Assembly: GCA_024639325.1 (NCBI GenBank)
Contig: JAHEIO010000019.1
Span: 4,485 to 45,503 of the forward strand
Direction: 5' to 3'
Length of the DNA stretch: 41,019 nucleotides
From: Gammaproteobacteria bacterium
Lineage (GTDB): Bacteria; Pseudomonadota; Gammaproteobacteria; Arenicellales; JAANXG01
Shown here one piece after another: positions 10,003 to 27,673 of the stretch. Made by a program: the position numbers and the translations under genes. Within the stretch, counting starts at the first letter, position 1. Every line of letters begins with the position of its first letter. The notes under the pieces are model-generated. The model ran no database searches and was not told the origin of the DNA. It saw only the letters and a program-made list of their open reading frames with translations.

Positions 10003-10425
10003 ATGTCCACTGTGTCTGAAAACAGGGCCCTTGTGGCCAAACTCAACCGGGCCTTGGGTCTGGAAATGCGAGCGGAAGTGATGTACGCCCATTACGCTGA
10101 ATACGTCAAGGGTATAAATCGGCTCTACCTGAAAACCTATTTTGAGGCGGAAGCCACTGAATCTTTCACGCACGCCGGTTCGGTCCGACACGCGATCAAT
10201 CAGTTGGGCGGTGAGGCGGTAACAGATCGTGATACCACCCCTATTCGCCATACCACCGATTATCAAGTCATGCTGCAAGAGGTGCTCAAGACCGAACAGC
10301 TGGCGGCGGAGACTTATCATGGAATTCTTCAAATGGTTACCGATAACGAGGAACTTTACGATGCAATAGAGCAAATCTACTTCGCCGAAGTTCGCAGCGT
10401 CGAGGAATTGAACCAACTTATCTAG
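10003..10425 (+). CDS. Ferritin-like (bacterioferritin-family) protein
   Basis: This is a small all-helical protein of 140 residues in the ferritin-like superfamily. It has the four-helix arrangement with acidic and histidine side chains spaced for a di-iron site: E21/E25 in LGLEMRAEVMYAHY, E49 and H54 in EATESFTHAGS, E102 near LKTEQLAAETYHGIL, and FAEVRSVEEL near the end. LNRALGLEMRAEVMYAHYAE and INQLGGEAV follow the bacterioferritin pattern, but the usual ExxH is spaced as ExxxH (ESFTH). Whether it stores iron, binds haem or only handles di-iron chemistry is uncertain. ATG 10003 has CCGGAG seven bases upstream. The stop TAG (10423-10425) lies inside the CTAG that begins the dispersed repeat, so the repeat supplies the end of the protein. 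Confidence 0.82.
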   Translation: MSTVSENRALVAKLNRALGLEMRAEVMYAHYAEYVKGINRLYLKTYFEAEATESFTHAGSVRHAINQLGGEAVTDRDTTPIRHTTDYQVMLQEVLKTEQLAAETYHGILQMVTDNEELYDAIEQIYFAEVRSVEELNQLI

Positions 10426-10497
10426 TGTACTCCGTGGTAAATTCGGTGACATTCAGCGAAGCGACAAGCATCCGAATTCAAGGCGCATTCGCGAAGC
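10422..10497 (+). repeat. 76-bp dispersed repeat, copy A
   Basis: This matches the reverse complement of 15029-15104 at 72 of 76 positions without gaps; the four differences lie in the first 25 bases and the last 51 are identical. It begins CTAGTGTAC, and the TAG in it is the stop codon of the ferritin-like gene. The core contains GAATTC and the palindrome TTCGCGAA. Outside the 76 bp the two copies share nothing. Confidence 0.92.
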
Positions 10498-10627
10498 CGA
10501 ACCGTGTCGACCCCTGAAAGTCGATCTAAGAAAACCACAAAAAGTAACGCCCTATAATAGCGAAAGCCCGGTGTCTTGTTTAGAATCAGCCTTTTTCCTG
10601 ATTACAGAAAATTCTCGGAGCAAGTTA

Positions 10628-10884
10628 ATGCAAAAGCTGGTTCTTCTGTTCGCCGGCTCATCACTGAGTACGGTGGCAGTCGCCGACGCGTCCAAAGGCG
10701 AAGCGGATTTCTCCAGCCTGAATGGCGGGCGATGTCACAGCTGTCATTGCACCGATGGAAAAAAATCCGTCGGACCCGGCTTGGAAGGAGTCAGGCAACG
10801 CCATTCCCGCGAACGTTGTGTAAAAAAAATCCCATGAGTGGCGAAGAGCTGCAAGATATGCTGGACTCTCTGTCAACGCTTTAG
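10628..10884 (+). pseudogene. Broken class I c-type cytochrome
   Basis: From ATG 10628 (GGAG about nine bases upstream) the frame encodes a signal-peptide-like start (MQKLVLLFAGSSLSTVAVAD), then the haem attachment motif CHSCH (about residue 37) and SVGPGLEGV, as in short periplasmic cytochromes c. At a run of eight A (10822-10829) the frame slips: the original frame stops at TGA 10836, while the -1 frame continues KNPMSGEELQDMLDSLSTL to TAG 10884, a normal cytochrome C-terminus. A ninth A would restore one frame. Even then, the segment that should hold the axial Met (a KMPP-type motif) is missing, pointing to an internal deletion as well. It is probably a pseudogene. A sequencing slip at poly-A could explain the frameshift but not the lost ligand. 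Confidence 0.75.
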
Positions 10885-10895
10885 GCGCACTCGTA

Positions 10896-11432
10896 GTGAT
10901 TGAGATCGAAAACACCAAACTGGATGGTGTGAAAATAGTCAAACCGAGGGTTTTCGGGGATGAACGTGGCTTTTTCATGGAGACGTTCAATGCCAGGGAC
11001 GCCGGTGACGCCGGTCTCGCTGTTTCATACGTTCAGGATAATCATTCGCAATCCTCACGGGGCGTCCTGCGCGGCCTCCATTATCAATACCCGCAGTGGC
11101 AGGGTAAACTGGTCAGGGTCGTGGGCGGAGAGGTTTTCGACGTTGCCGTTGACATCCGCAAAGACTCGGAGACTTACGGCAGATGGTTTGGTCTGAATCT
11201 TTCCGCTGAAAACAAACTGCAGATGTACGTACCGGAAGGTTTCGCCCACGGCTTCGCAGTATTGTCCGCAACGGCTGACGTCATTTATAAGTGCACCACG
11301 CTGTATGAACCCAGTCAGGACCGCTGCCTGTTGTGGAATGATCCCGATATTGGCATCGAGTGGCCCCTACAAAATCCTATCATTTCGGAAAAAGACAAAA
11401 AAGGCAGTAAATTCAGAGACCTCGATTTATAG
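10896..11432 (+). CDS. rmlC: dTDP-4-dehydrorhamnose 3,5-epimerase
   Basis: This enzyme epimerises C3 and C5 of dTDP-4-keto-6-deoxyglucose, the third step of dTDP-L-rhamnose synthesis for surface polysaccharide. The product is a 178-residue cupin. It has the family start (PRVFGDERGFFMETFN), the catalytic His in RGVLRGLHYQYP (about residue 62), GEVFDVAVDIRKDS with the partner Asp/Arg, and FAHGFAVLS and DVIYKCTTLYEP around the active site. The length is standard. The start is GTG 10896; no strong ribosome-binding site is visible, and the gene follows the cytochrome remnant by 11 bp. rmlD lies 125 bp downstream on the same strand. rmlA and rmlB are not in the window and must be elsewhere. Confidence 0.95.
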   Translation: MIEIENTKLDGVKIVKPRVFGDERGFFMETFNARDAGDAGLAVSYVQDNHSQSSRGVLRGLHYQYPQWQGKLVRVVGGEVFDVAVDIRKDSETYGRWFGLNLSAENKLQMYVPEGFAHGFAVLSATADVIYKCTTLYEPSQDRCLLWNDPDIGIEWPLQNPIISEKDKKGSKFRDLDL

Positions 11433-11557
11433 TCCGTATTTCTCAGCAAGCGGCGATGGAACCATAATAAAGCAATGCGAATGAATCGGTATTTGGTTTT
11501 GCCTGAAAAAATGCGTGTATTCGCAACGGCTATCCTGGTGAGAAACCCGGCTTAGAT

Positions 11558-12433
11558 ATGCGAATACTGGTATTTGGGAAGACCGGCCAGGTGGGTTCCG
11601 GGTTGGCCAAGGATCTGGGCGGCATGGGTTCCGTGCGGTGTGTGGGACGGACCGAGGCGGACCTGTCCGATCTGGCTGCGGTCGAAAATATAATCCAGGA
11701 GGATCACCCGGACGTCATCATAAACGCAGCGGCATACACCAATGTGGACCATGCCGAGACCGATGTCGAGATTGCCCGTCTTGTCAACGCCAGGGCGCCG
11801 GGCGTAATGGCGGAAATGGCGGCGGTCAACGACGCATGGATCGTACATTACTCCACCGATTACGTTTTTGATGGTGAACTGGACGCTCCGTACGCCGAGG
11901 AGGCGGTCAAAAATCCAAAAAATGTGTACGGTGATACGAAATCTTCCGGAGAGGACGCGATCCGGCAGGCGACGGATCGTCATTTGATCATTCGTACCAG
12001 CTGGGTGTACTCGAACGAGGGCAGGAACTTCCTGAATACCGTATTGCGCCTGGCGAGCCAGCAGGGTGAGCTGAGAATCGTGGACGATCAGATGGGGACC
12101 CCCACGTATGCAAGGATACTGTCTAGAACGACCGCGGCGATGTTGAAAAGAATTTCCGCAGATCGGAACGACTCGAATCTGGCGGGGATTTACAATGTAA
12201 CGTGTGAAGGGGCCACCACATGGTACGGGTTTGCCTGCGAAATCCTGCGCTGTGCCGGAATAGACAAAGTGAGTATCGAACCGATCGGCACGGGTGACTA
12301 CCCAACGCCGGCTGAAAGGCCGCGCTATTCAGTGCTCGACACTTCGAAACTGGATCGAGTTTACGGATTGCGTTTGCCACCTTGGCAGGCGTCGTTGAAA
12401 GAATGTATGGCGGAACGTGCCGTTCAACGATGA
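11558..12433 (+). CDS. rmlD: dTDP-4-dehydrorhamnose reductase
   Basis: This is the final enzyme of dTDP-L-rhamnose synthesis, an extended short-chain dehydrogenase that reduces the 4-keto group with NAD(P)H. It has 291 residues. The Rossmann motif is FGKTGQVGSGL at 6-16. NAAAYTNVDHAE matches the nucleotide-binding loop, STDYVFDG carries the catalytic Thr/Ser region, and YGDTKSSGE contains the catalytic Tyr-x3-Lys. RTSWVY and PTYARILSRTTAAML complete the family pattern. The start ATG 11558 lies two bases after the end of a 24-codon frame (11481-11555), which could be a leader peptide but has no supporting feature. The last 17 bp overlap the helicase gene, indicating cotranscription. Confidence 0.95.
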   Translation: MRILVFGKTGQVGSGLAKDLGGMGSVRCVGRTEADLSDLAAVENIIQEDHPDVIINAAAYTNVDHAETDVEIARLVNARAPGVMAEMAAVNDAWIVHYSTDYVFDGELDAPYAEEAVKNPKNVYGDTKSSGEDAIRQATDRHLIIRTSWVYSNEGRNFLNTVLRLASQQGELRIVDDQMGTPTYARILSRTTAAMLKRISADRNDSNLAGIYNVTCEGATTWYGFACEILRCAGIDKVSIEPIGTGDYPTPAERPRYSVLDTSKLDRVYGLRLPPWQASLKECMAERAVQR

Positions 12434-14351
12434 AAGCGGAGAGCTGCTGGGTCCTGACGGCCCGTTTGTCGGTTCGATACCGGGATTTCAGCCCAGATCG
12501 AGTCAGGTCAAGATGGCGGATGCGGTGGCACGGTGTCTGGCCGACAACGACGTATATGTAGTTGAATCCGGAACGGGTACTGGAAAAACCTTCGCTTATC
12601 TGGTTCCGGCCGTTTTGTCCGATAAACGGGTGATCGTTTCAACGGGCACCAAACCTCTGCAAGACCAACTCTACCACCGCGACCTGCCCGCGGTTCTGCG
12701 GGTTGTCAATACGACCGCCAGGGTCGCCCTGCTAAAGGGCCGGGCAAACTATTTATGCAAGCATCGGTTGGCTTTCGCCACCCAACAAATGGACCTGTCG
12801 CCGGACGGCACGACCAGGGAGCTTCTCGAGGTGGAAAAGTGGGCCCGTGAAACGATGACTGGCGATCTGGCGGAATTGACCGCGATTGCGGAAGACTCGA
12901 CGGTCCGGGGAACGGTCACTTCGACAGTTGACAATTGCCTCGGATCGAGATGCCCGCAATATGACGATTGCTATGTCAACCGGGCGCGTCGGGCGGCGCT
13001 TGCTGCGGATATTCTGGTAATAAACCATCATCTTTTTTGTGCAGACCTCGTGCTGAGAGAAGATGGCTTTGGTCAGCTATTGCCGGGTGCCGATGCGGTA
13101 ATCTTCGATGAAGCACACCAACTCGCTGAGGTGGCGACGAACTTCCTCGGAATTTCCGTGAGTTCCAATCAGATTCGGGAACTGTGCCGGGACATCGCTG
13201 CAGAAGAGATGCGCGAGCAGAGCCAGGTGCGCGGACTCTTGGAATCGGTGCAAAGCGTTCAATCAGTGCTCGAAAAACTCGCCGGGTGTGTCGGGACCTC
13301 GAACGAACGACAGGGATGGGATGCGTTTGGCAGCGATGCTGACATCATTGACCGTCTGCACCTGCTGTTGACCAGGATCTGTGACCTTGGTGATATCCTC
13401 GAACTTGCCGCGCCGGCCGGCGAGGGAATGACCCGCTGCTGGCAGCGTGTCCTGGTCTGCGCGGAGCGATTGAGCAGATTTTCGGAATCGTCCGGCTCGC
13501 GATACGTGCGGTGGATGGAAACCGGACGGCAATGGTTCAGGTTCCATGAAACACCGCTGCAACTCGGTGAATCACTCAGGCCGTATCTTCATGACCGTGG
13601 CAAAGCCTGGTTCTATACCTCCGCGACGCTTTCGGTCAAAGGTGATTTTTCCTATTTCTGTGACCAGCTTGGGATCGATGCCGCGGAATCGTTCAGCCTG
13701 GACAGCCCGTTCGACTATCGAGCACAGGCGCGGTTGTACATCCCTCGTGGATTGCGCGATCCACGACAACCCGGGTATGTTAGAGAAGTCGTCATGAAAG
13801 CGCTGCCGGTATTGGAGATCGTAAGAGGACGTACATTCTTTTTATTCACCAGCCATAGCGCGCTGCGAGAAGCCCGCGACGTACTGACAGAATGTTCGCA
13901 CTACCATTTGTTGGTGCAGGGTCAAAAACCCCGAACCGAGCTTCTACACCAGTTCCGAACGACACCGGGTGCGGTGCTCCTGGGAACGTCGAGTTTTTGG
14001 GAAGGCGTGGATGTCCGGGGCCCGGCCTTGTCCTGCGTCATCATCGACAAGTTGCCATTTGCTTCTCCCACGGATCCGGTTTTACGCGCCAGACTGGAAG
14101 CCATCGAATCCGAGGGGGGCAGGCCTTTCTTGGACCATCAGCTGCCGCACGCCGTGATCGCGCTGAAGCAGGGGGTCGGCAGGCTCATCCGGGACCGCAA
14201 TGACGTCGGCATCCTGATGTTGTGCGATCCTCGATTGCTAAGCAAAGGTTACGGCAAGGTGTTCCTGAACAGCATTCCGGATATTCCGGCGACCCGGGAC
14301 ATCGAAGAGGTCCGGCGGTTTTTCGATGAATCGAGCGGAGCCGGGGAGTGA
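12417..14351 (+). CDS. yoaA: DinG-family ATP-dependent DNA helicase (YoaA-like)
   Basis: This is an XPD-like superfamily 2 helicase of 644 residues with an iron-sulfur cluster, acting 5'-3' in DNA repair. Walker A is SGTGTGKT (51-58). Four cysteines at 114, 174, 179 and 185 fit the Fe-S ligand pattern (YLC, NCLGSRCPQYDDC). Walker B is the DEAH box at 231-234. The C-terminal helicase motifs include FLFTSHSALREA, GTSSFWEGVDVRG and the motif VI block KQGVGRLIRDRNDVG. It is closest by recall to YoaA, and it lies directly upstream of tsaB as yoaA does in other gammaproteobacteria. The start is GTG 12417, inside the rmlD end. An internal start is unlikely because residues 20-35 (GFQPRSSQVKMADAV) belong to the Q motif. 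Confidence 0.92.
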   Translation: MPFNDESGELLGPDGPFVGSIPGFQPRSSQVKMADAVARCLADNDVYVVESGTGTGKTFAYLVPAVLSDKRVIVSTGTKPLQDQLYHRDLPAVLRVVNTTARVALLKGRANYLCKHRLAFATQQMDLSPDGTTRELLEVEKWARETMTGDLAELTAIAEDSTVRGTVTSTVDNCLGSRCPQYDDCYVNRARRAALAADILVINHHLFCADLVLREDGFGQLLPGADAVIFDEAHQLAEVATNFLGISVSSNQIRELCRDIAAEEMREQSQVRGLLESVQSVQSVLEKLAGCVGTSNERQGWDAFGSDADIIDRLHLLLTRICDLGDILELAAPAGEGMTRCWQRVLVCAERLSRFSESSGSRYVRWMETGRQWFRFHETPLQLGESLRPYLHDRGKAWFYTSATLSVKGDFSYFCDQLGIDAAESFSLDSPFDYRAQARLYIPRGLRDPRQPGYVREVVMKALPVLEIVRGRTFFLFTSHSALREARDVLTECSHYHLLVQGQKPRTELLHQFRTTPGAVLLGTSSFWEGVDVRGPALSCVIIDKLPFASPTDPVLRARLEAIESEGGRPFLDHQLPHAVIALKQGVGRLIRDRNDVGILMLCDPRLLSKGYGKVFLNSIPDIPATRDIEEVRRFFDESSGAGE

Positions 14352-15013
14352 AGCTGCTCGCCCTGGATACCTCCACGCAGGCCTGTTCAGCGGCCATTTG
14401 GCTCGATGGCCAGGCCGTCGAGGTTTTGGAGATCGCATCGAACCGACACTCAAGCCTGATCCTGACAATGGTTGACCGGGTGCTTGCGGAGAGCGGAACG
14501 AGTTTGAACCAGTGCGACGCCATCGCATTTAGCCGGGGGCCGGGTTCATTTACCGGGCTGCGAATCGGTGTGGGCGTAGTCCAGGGATTGGCTTATGGTG
14601 CGGATGTTCCAGTGTTGCCCATATCGTCACTGCGGGCGCAGGCCGCGAGAGCGGGGGCGGGAGCGAAAAACGTTCTCGCCGCATTCGACGCCCGGATGCG
14701 GCAGGTGTATTGGGGTTTGTATCGACTGAATACGGACGGTTACGCCCAAGCCGACAACGATATCATGCTGACCGCGCCGGAGCTGGTACGCGTGCCCGTC
14801 GCAAAAAAGTGGTTAGCTGCCGGCGGGGGGTGTGATCTTTACCGGGAGATAATCGAGGCGGCGAACTCGGGAGCAGAAATCAGTTTCATCCCGCGAAGTC
14901 ATCCTCACGCCACTGACGTCGCAAGGCTTGGGGCAGTTGATTATCGTGCCGGAAGGGCGGTGCCCGCGGCGTTAGCGCTGCCGGAGTATGTGCGAAATCA
15001 GGTGACGACCTGA
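14348..15013 (+). CDS. tsaB: tRNA threonylcarbamoyladenosine biosynthesis protein TsaB
   Basis: TsaB (YeaZ) is the non-catalytic partner of TsaD and TsaE in making the universal t6A37 modification of ANN-decoding tRNAs. It has 221 residues and an ASKHA/actin-like fold. Typical pieces are the N-terminal LALDTSTQACSAAIW, the conserved FSRGPGSFTGLRIGVGVVQGLAYG (in part), and AAFDARMRQVYWGLY. The GTG start at 14348 overlaps the helicase stop by 4 bp, so it is translationally coupled. It is convergent with the minus-strand gene at 15101, and repeat copy B lies between the two. The other threonylcarbamoyl-related gene here, yciO at 29097, is distant. Confidence 0.94.
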   Translation: MKLLALDTSTQACSAAIWLDGQAVEVLEIASNRHSSLILTMVDRVLAESGTSLNQCDAIAFSRGPGSFTGLRIGVGVVQGLAYGADVPVLPISSLRAQAARAGAGAKNVLAAFDARMRQVYWGLYRLNTDGYAQADNDIMLTAPELVRVPVAKKWLAAGGGCDLYREIIEAANSGAEISFIPRSHPHATDVARLGAVDYRAGRAVPAALALPEYVRNQVTT

Positions 15014-15023
15014 GAAATGCGCG

Positions 15024-15104
15024 CTAGTGCTTCGCGAATGCGCCTTGAATTCGGATGCTTGTCGCTTCGCTGAATGTCACAGGATTTACGACGGGGTACA
15101 CTAG
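15024..15104 (-). repeat. 76-bp dispersed repeat, copy B, with CTAGTG at both ends
   Basis: The reverse complement of 15029-15104 matches copy A (10422-10497) at 72 of 76 positions. On the minus strand it begins CTAGTGTACCCC, and its TAG (15101-15103) is the stop codon of the exported-protein gene. At the other end the plus strand reads CTAGTGC (15024-15030), so this copy is bounded by inverted CTAGTG words. CTAG at both edges fits either short terminal repeats or a 4-bp target duplication. It lies between convergent genes and has no coding capacity. Confidence 0.9.
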
Positions 15105-15556
15105 CAGAGAACCGAGAAGCTCTTCGTTTCTAATGGCTCGTTGTCTATGGCCAAATGCAGTTCCCACTTGCCGATGAACTCGTCCATCCCGGCGCTGGGA
15201 TTGATGAACGACACCAGCGCTGCCTCGGCGGGGCGATGAAGTTTCAGCCACACCCAGATGCGTTCACTGTCGTTGTTGGCCTGGAATTCATACTCGGTAA
15301 ACTCCCGGTCTTTCCCCTGCGGGTCGCGCCAAACCGCATCGAGTTTGTGCATTTCCCTGGATAAACCAGAGAGTTCGATGACGGCGTATATCTTATCGCT
15401 GCAACTGAACTCCGTGGCCGGCTGCTGCACCGGGATACCTTCCGACTCGCTGGCGGTCAGGTAGACGTTGTGGGGGGATGCGGAGAGTACGGTATTGCCG
15501 TACGAGTATGTTGCAACAAGGCATGCCGCCCAGATTAATTTAGATACATTAGCCAT
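15101..15556 (-). CDS. Exported protein of unknown function
   Basis: I do not recognise the family. From ATG 15556 the product has 151 residues with a probable Sec signal peptide (MANVSKLIWAACLVATYSYG, cut near TVLSA). A compact, mostly beta-looking domain follows, with aromatic-rich strands (DKIYAVIELSGL, RIWVWLKLHRP, GKWELHLAIDN) and three cysteines, two of them in the mature part (FSCSD and the terminal VLC). The lengths and strand spacing suggest an immunoglobulin-like or beta-sandwich fold, which is inference. GAGG eight bases before ATG 15556 favours this start over GTG 15562. The stop codon TAG is contributed by the repeat. It lies 18 bp downstream of a lipoprotein gene on the same strand, so the pair probably forms an operon. 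Confidence 0.72.
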   Translation of the reverse strand: MANVSKLIWAACLVATYSYGNTVLSASPHNVYLTASESEGIPVQQPATEFSCSDKIYAVIELSGLSREMHKLDAVWRDPQGKDREFTEYEFQANNDSERIWVWLKLHRPAEAALVSFINPSAGMDEFIGKWELHLAIDNEPLETKSFSVLC

Positions 15557-15574
15557 TATCACTACCTCAGGTTT

Positions 15575-27598: not shown

Positions 27599-27673
27599 TG
27601 GCGCTCCCTAGGGGATTCGAACCCCTGTTACCGGCGTGAGAGGCCAGCGTCCTAACCACTAGACGAAGGGAGC
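27599..27673 (-). tRNA. tRNA-Glu (anticodon CTC), CCA encoded
   Basis: The minus strand folds as a standard cloverleaf: acceptor GCTCCCT pairing with AGGGAGC, discriminator G, D-arm in TCGTCTAGTGGTTAGGAC, anticodon stem CTGGC/GCCGG with loop CTCTCAC (anticodon CTC, reading GAG), variable TAACA and T-arm GGGGTTCGAATCCCC. The 3' CCA (27599-27601) is encoded. The body closely resembles gammaproteobacterial tRNA-Glu. It lies between copA and the divergent pcnB. Confidence 0.96.

Follow-up and report, generated by a model that had tools for sequence, protein, structure and literature searches.

A short inverted repeat at two stop codons of a gammaproteobacterial genome is very probably a miniature transposable element that inserts at CTAG and landed on pre-existing gene ends

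A small, non-autonomous element with inverted ends and CTAG as target is known from Pseudomonas syringae pv. phaseolicola, in which MITEPsy1 inserts at CTAG (or YTAA) and duplicates these 4 nt (PMC3189936). MITEPsy1 is 100 nt long, carries 18-nt ends (GGAAGGTCTGAAAAAGCC) and is linked to ISPsy2 in that report. In Rhodococcus equi, CTAG is the target of TnRErm46/ISRe46 of the IS481 family, a 6.9-kb autonomous transposon with the inverted repeat TGTTGCGGGTCATGACGTTG and 6-bp direct repeats of the form NCTAGN; there, CTAG was described to provide TAG stops to some of the target genes (e.g. parB), which are hence not interrupted (PMC6794481). ISLxc2 of Leifsonia xyli, also a member of the IS481 family, combines TGT ends with a CTAG-type target in which the stop codon of the element itself is located, and has a length of 1,105 bp, a transposase and 6-bp NCTAGN repeats (PMC2516522). 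For IS630 of Shigella sonnei the preferred target is TA within CTAG (Tenzen 1990, 1991, in PMC2170065).

Judged by the published descriptions of the gene-sparing CTAG transposon (PMC6794481) and the CTAG-duplicating MITE (PMC3189936), the repeat family analyzed here is of a known kind. With a probability of about 0.93 we regard it as a non-autonomous transposable element (MITE) with terminal inverted repeats, which inserts at CTAG and landed on pre-existing stop codons. It shares small size, lack of autonomy, inverted ends and target with MITEPsy1, but its length is different, its ends are unrelated in sequence and the link to ISPsy2 was described for MITEPsy1. The CTAG target is common to TnRErm46 and the present element, whereas the latter has no transposase and a target duplication of at most 4 bp; TGT ends and a CTAG-type target are likewise shared with ISLxc2, but not its length, transposase or 6-bp repeats, and the target preferred by IS630, TA within CTAG, would fit as well. 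The sparing of genes is already in print for the Rhodococcus transposon, and the present family allows it to be counted across many copies. Less usual in the present genomes is that several unrelated repeats are bounded by CTAG and share sites with the element.

The element was identified in a window of 41,019 nucleotides, the whole stretch of DNA analyzed, on contig JAHEIO010000019.1. Positions 10422-10497 (copy A) and the reverse complement of 15029-15104 (copy B) are identical at 72 of 76 bases without gaps, with mismatches at positions 10, 15, 22 and 24. This pair was the longest reported by an inverted-repeat scan of the window, followed by a pair of 32 nt at 72%. Re-computation thereby reproduced the 76-bp inverted repeat of the original prediction, as well as its identical tail, which comprises 52 and not 51 bases as the last mismatch is at position 24. 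ORF calls agreed with its statement that the TAG within CTAG is the stop of the incoming gene in both copies. The CTAGTG that it had noted at copy B's far edge is present, and the CTAG therein is the second boundary of that copy; copy A is without CTAG at its far edge. The features are as follows, where G001 is a genome of the same genus (public assembly CAMYOI01, MAG FCS_Gamma_070), a draft with about 8% contamination in which two versions of the copy A region are present.

10003-10425, plus strand: ferritin-like gene (ORF call; Pfam Ferritin, E=1e-14), with its own TAG stop within the CTAG at 10422-10425.
10422-10425, no strand: target CTAG at the left flank of copy A and native stop codon; a single CTAG is found at the equivalent place in G001 contig C28.
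10426-10497, plus strand: copy A, the left 72 bp of the putative MITE (element positions 5-76); 96% match to positions 1-76 of the 270-bp element.
14348-15013, plus strand: gene across copy B from the exported-type gene (ORF call), with a TGA stop before the element; we take it to be TsaB-like.
15024-15027, no strand: boundary CTAG of copy B towards tsaB, one of two flanking CTAGs; the orthologous G001 C205 has a single CTAG.
15028-15100, minus strand: copy B, a 73-bp short form of the putative MITE with CTAG on both sides; absent from the orthologous G001 site.
15101-15104, no strand: second boundary CTAG of copy B, which contains the stop of the minus-strand gene, as seen from the sequence and the comparison with G001.
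15101-15562, minus strand: short exported-type protein gene with native TAG stop (ORF call; same ending without the element in G001 C205); no Pfam family was found for its product in a Pfam scan.

The sole RNA gene found in the window by an Rfam scan at gathering score is a tRNA-Glu (CTC) at 27599-27673 on the minus strand.

Genome matches and their flanks revealed a family of 270 bp, of which the 76-bp unit represents no more than the left part. The element has 35-bp inverted ends and reads CTAG, TGTACCCCGTCGTAAATTC...GAATTTACCACGGGGTACA, CTAG; complete copies start with CTAG followed by TGTACCCCGTCGTAAATTCTGTGACATTCAG and finish with the inverted version of the same sequence. In five full-length copies of the own genome the two 35-bp ends match at 34 or 35 of 35 positions (34 of the 34 compared in C117), and each of these copies matches its own reverse complement at 69-71% over the whole length. 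The original prediction had proposed to search the genome and close relatives for the 76-bp unit. Using the 270-bp copy C242:39038-39307 as reference, 13 copies and one contig-edge fragment were found in the own genome (a draft of 4.69 Mb in 352 contigs), and at least 34 copies in G001, where 40 of 47 candidates were scored. The element is thus short and multicopy, and with 270 bp it is too short to encode a transposase. Copy B matches element positions 1-86, its own CTAGs included, at 98%; the 73-bp form possibly originated by a deletion between an internal CTAG (element 78-81) and the CTAG of the right end. Copy A appears to have lost its right side in a deletion that also removed about 70 bp of flank, as judged from an alignment with G001 C28. 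At C261:11480-11495 (L210) of the own genome the element is represented by its first 16 bp alone, which are mirrored across CTAG by ...GTACA and located beside the 3' end of an ORF; this is possibly a scar.

Among 100 genomes (the own genome and 99 relatives), six contained a match at E up to 0.01, and the only element-rich ones were the own genome and G001. G002 and G003, which belong to the same genus, gave no match among the 7 of 13 candidates scored in each, and G035, G076 and G089 gave one short weak match apiece. G007 harbors two copies of a cousin element (L066, L070), which is bounded by CTAG, starts with CTAG followed by TGTACCCCGTC, contains a ACATTCAGCG block and is similar in length and ends to the present element, but differs from it in the interior and in part of the ends, the match (77%) being confined to the first 48 bp; one of its copies is located on the stop codon of the gene for ribosomal protein S6. 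The flanks of the copy in own C197 (L004) and of that in G001 C440 (L106) are 94% alike over 385 bp. To judge from this similarity, the two copies are probably one insertion common to both genomes, and some copies may therefore predate the split of the own genome and G001.

The collected loci were subjected to an ungapped end scan, which gave 61 distinct ends (18 own, 43 G001). The end is preceded by CTAG in 53 of these 61 cases and otherwise by TTAG (3), CTGG (2), GTAG (1), CCAG (1) or TGCG (1). TGT follows CTAG directly with no base between, and the base preceding CTAG varies (G 22, C 11, A 11, T 9). A 6-bp duplication is therefore excluded and the duplication comprises at most 4 bp; since TA sits inside CTAG, duplication of the 4-bp CTAG and of the 2-bp TA would be indistinguishable. 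TTAG was considered as an alternative target and rejected in the sole case compared, that of own C117, in which the TTAG reads CTAG in G001; this TTAG apparently arose by a later C-to-T change that is silent in the gene. The two other TTAG ends are in own C341 and G001 C156. A small deletion next to the insertion common with G001 C440 appears to account for the GTAG end of own C197.

Whether the two genes obtain their stop codons from the repeat was assessed at sites without the element, as the original prediction had itself suggested, and a single CTAG was found at three G001 loci. At the site of copy B, the window reads CTAG, 73 bp, CTAG, and G001 C205 contains a single CTAG instead. At the site of copy A, G001 C28 has one CTAG at the equivalent place in the ferritin-like gene and no element. 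The third site concerns a LysM gene, which ends in AACTAG in G001 C30 and in own C117 reads AATTAG, element, CTAG, another repeat, CTAG. The flanks are accordingly duplicated in the own genome, with CTAG on both sides at copy B and likewise, with one changed base, at the LysM site. The stop codons of the ferritin-like, exported-protein and LysM genes are hence present in G001 without the present element (3/3 sites compared), which means that the element landed on existing stop codons. The claim of a supplied stop was wrong at all three sites, as the genes already end in CTAG in G001; copies A and B lie next to stop codons since ...CTAG was already the end of both host genes. The G001 sites show that a CTAG-targeting element can insert at the last codon of a gene and leave the gene intact. 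The other half of the original prediction, a small mobile repeat with a preference for CTAG, is backed by the copy number, the inverted ends, the element-free sites and the CTAG at 53/61 ends.

The frequency of stop codons among element copies was compared with that among available CTAG sites. CTAG was counted in 441 kb of the own genome, consisting of the window and 20 stretches that derive mostly from element-carrying contigs. A total of 214 CTAGs was found (0.485/kb), about 8 times rarer than the 3.77/kb expected from base composition. The 198 that do not belong to the element divide into 111 within called genes, 66 intergenic and 21 at stop codons, so that stop codons account for 21 of the 87 CTAGs outside called-gene interiors. 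Genes were called with an unpublished codon-usage script of our own, which takes the longest start. By the same gene caller, 15 of the 45 element copies for which an end was scanned are located on a stop codon: both window copies and those of C242, C63, C280 and C15 in the own genome, and in G001 those of C4 (two copies), C216, C7, C80, C67, C131, C156 (with TTAG) and C101. Left out of the 45 were the contig-edge fragment of own C287, G001 C631 (contig edge) and own C63:1982-2144, which was missed by the ungapped end scan and ends in CTGG away from any stop.

Compared with all CTAGs (21/198), the 15/45 represent an excess (binomial P = 4e-5, Fisher 4e-4), whereas compared with CTAGs outside gene interiors (21/87) they do not differ significantly (binomial P = 0.16, Fisher 0.30). 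The tabulation of copies against stop codons proposed in the original prediction thus showed an enrichment over CTAGs at large, but none that is significant over those outside gene interiors. Counting C197/C440 as one insertion gives 15/44 with much the same P. When the LysM and aldo/keto reductase genes, which were missed by the caller and are supported by Pfam, are added, the share rises to 17/45 (binomial P = 0.037 and Fisher 0.11 versus 21/87), and the element may therefore have a mild extra preference for stop codons.

According to the gene calls, two of the 61 ends (C497, C411) are crossed by genes directed into the element, and six of 61 are overlapped by genes directed away from it, which, with the longest start taken, would begin inside the element; some insertions may therefore touch genes. 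Proteins that end at the element in the own genome and G001 were assigned to a Pfam family in 11 of 17 cases scanned, namely class-I tRNA synthetase E/Q, DAO, LPG_synthase_TM, Ferritin, LysM, SDR, aldo/keto reductase, YtoQ, DUF3108, TonB_C and ABC transporter, and several of these domains extend almost to the last residue. In six of the 17 (own C242 and C312, the latter at copy B; G001 C67, C131, C101 and C33) the scan detected no Pfam family. The scan left out the C216 protein and the TAG-frame ORFs of at least 76 aa on L021 (plus), L077 (plus and minus) and L106 (minus).

Since CTAG is scarce and about a quarter of the CTAGs outside gene interiors are at stops, an element that targets CTAG will often land on a stop. 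The mechanism we propose is that the MITE is mobilised in trans, presumably by a transposase with CTAG as insertion site, so that the element comes to lie between two CTAGs. With CTAG scarce, few copies inside genes and about a quarter of the non-interior CTAGs being TAG stops, a new copy would frequently meet a stop codon; the target duplication would then restore the stop and the gene would stay whole, while purifying selection would act as a filter against insertions in genes. The occurrence of one repeat at two stop codons is explained by target choice and scarcity of sites.

The original prediction had alternatively considered the repeat as a portable 3' end, kept or selected at gene ends where it would give a stop codon and fold into an RNA structure terminating or stabilising transcripts. 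That 15 of 45 copies abut a TAG stop is compatible with such a role, and so is the single long hairpin into which the full 270-nt form folds (-155 kcal/mol, z = -12.6). The proposed RNA folding was also carried out for the two pieces in the window, which were no better folded than shuffled sequences (z = 0.34 and -0.78), and a consensus scan detected no terminator-like site at copy A or B. Moreover, the stops pre-exist at the three sites compared, stops are about as frequent among the copies as among CTAGs outside gene interiors, and both ends of the element abut stops (left 9, right 6), in the same ratio as among the scanned ends (36 left, 25 right). Pre-existing stops, use of both ends, unstructured window pieces and the lack of terminator-like sites led us to reject this role, which we consider highly improbable, in favor of insertion of the MITE into existing stop codons.

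To identify the transposase that would move the element, its ends were compared with transposase loci and searched for in several collections. No autonomous partner with matching ends was found around IS481, IS701 and IS630 loci or with end patterns in genomes, viral contigs and plasmids, the genomes being drafts. An origin from an IS481-family element would account for the TGT...ACA ends and the CTAG target, which are as in members of that family. However, the CTAG-targeting members described in the cited reports duplicate 6 bp (NCTAGN), which is excluded here; this duplication is typical and not universal, as descriptions of the family give 6 bp for the majority and 2 to 15 bp as known. In addition, all ten IS481 matches of the own genome, the only genome searched for this family, were below the family cut-off, and we regard this origin as somewhat unlikely. 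IS701 gave no match over cut-off in G000, G001 and G007 and six weak ones, all in G001. IS630 gave 20 matches in the same three genomes, two of them over cut-off. IS630 itself is autonomous, unlike the present element.

An IS630/Tc1-mariner-type or IS5-type origin, with TA or CTAG duplicated inside CTAG, is possible, though short of an even chance. IS630 favors TA in 5'-CTAG-3' (Tenzen and Ohtsubo 1991, cited in PMC2170065), and MITEPsy1, which duplicates CTAG or YTAA, was linked by its authors to ISPsy2 of the IS5 family (PMC3189936). Against it, ends of this type were not seen around the IS630 matches of G000, G001 and G007; an inverted-repeat and end scan over up to 1.5 kb of flank did not show the element ends around IS481, IS701 or IS630 matches. 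In the own genome the end pattern matched 18 times, always in copies of the present element, and all 19 stretches matched among genome contigs were from the G001 assembly. Two end-pattern searches of viral contigs gave three stretches and none, respectively, and 274 genomes of the class gave matches in five, the own genome included, in neither case with a second end and a transposase. Matches outside the family had no second end within the genome loci, which reach 1.5 kb past the motif. Plasmids contained no match to the end of the present element and two short partial matches to the end of the G007 cousin.

A scan for recurrent ends in the collected loci, a sample biased towards the present family, also identified other ends after CTAG, namely CCCGCATTTCCCACCAGG (17 distinct flanks), CCTGCATATTGCGCCAGA (6) and GGAAACTCTGATTAATTC (3), while the corresponding scans after TTAA, GTAC and AGCT listed the present element only. 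The repeat with the GGAAACTCTGATTAATTC end looks, by eye, closer to MITEPsy1, as published, than the present element does. That CTAG is a common landing site for several unrelated small repeats in this genus is a possible but unlikely generalization. If it were general, the scarcity of CTAG and its overlap with TAG stop codons would turn the ends of genes into places where mobile DNA can settle safely and repeatedly, possibly with a mild additional preference for stop codons.

A second repeat, CTAGGGATGCTCTGATTAAT...ATTAATCAGAGTTTCCCTAG with a core of the type CATTGCG...GCAATGAC, was observed in G001 C551 (L150, about 518-735) and own C341 (L012/L025), and its ends resemble those of MITEPsy1 by eye. 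In G001 C551 this different, CTAG-bounded repeat fills the very same stop CTAG of the ferritin-like gene, so that two related genomes carry different repeats at one and the same native stop codon; in own C341 a relative of it interrupts the 270-bp element. A third repeat, CTAGCCTGCATATTGCGCCAG..., of about 120 bp was found in own C117 (L015, about 520-640), G001 C180 (L081) and own C11 (L171); in own C117 it is bounded by CTAG and directly adjoins the copy of the 270-bp element. The end motif CTAGCCCGCATTTCCCACCAGG recurs after CTAG with 17 distinct flanks in the collected loci. The bases left of copy B (near window 15010-15027; reverse complement CTAGCGCGCATTTCTCAGG) resemble this motif and, by this resemblance, may be a remnant of yet another repeat.
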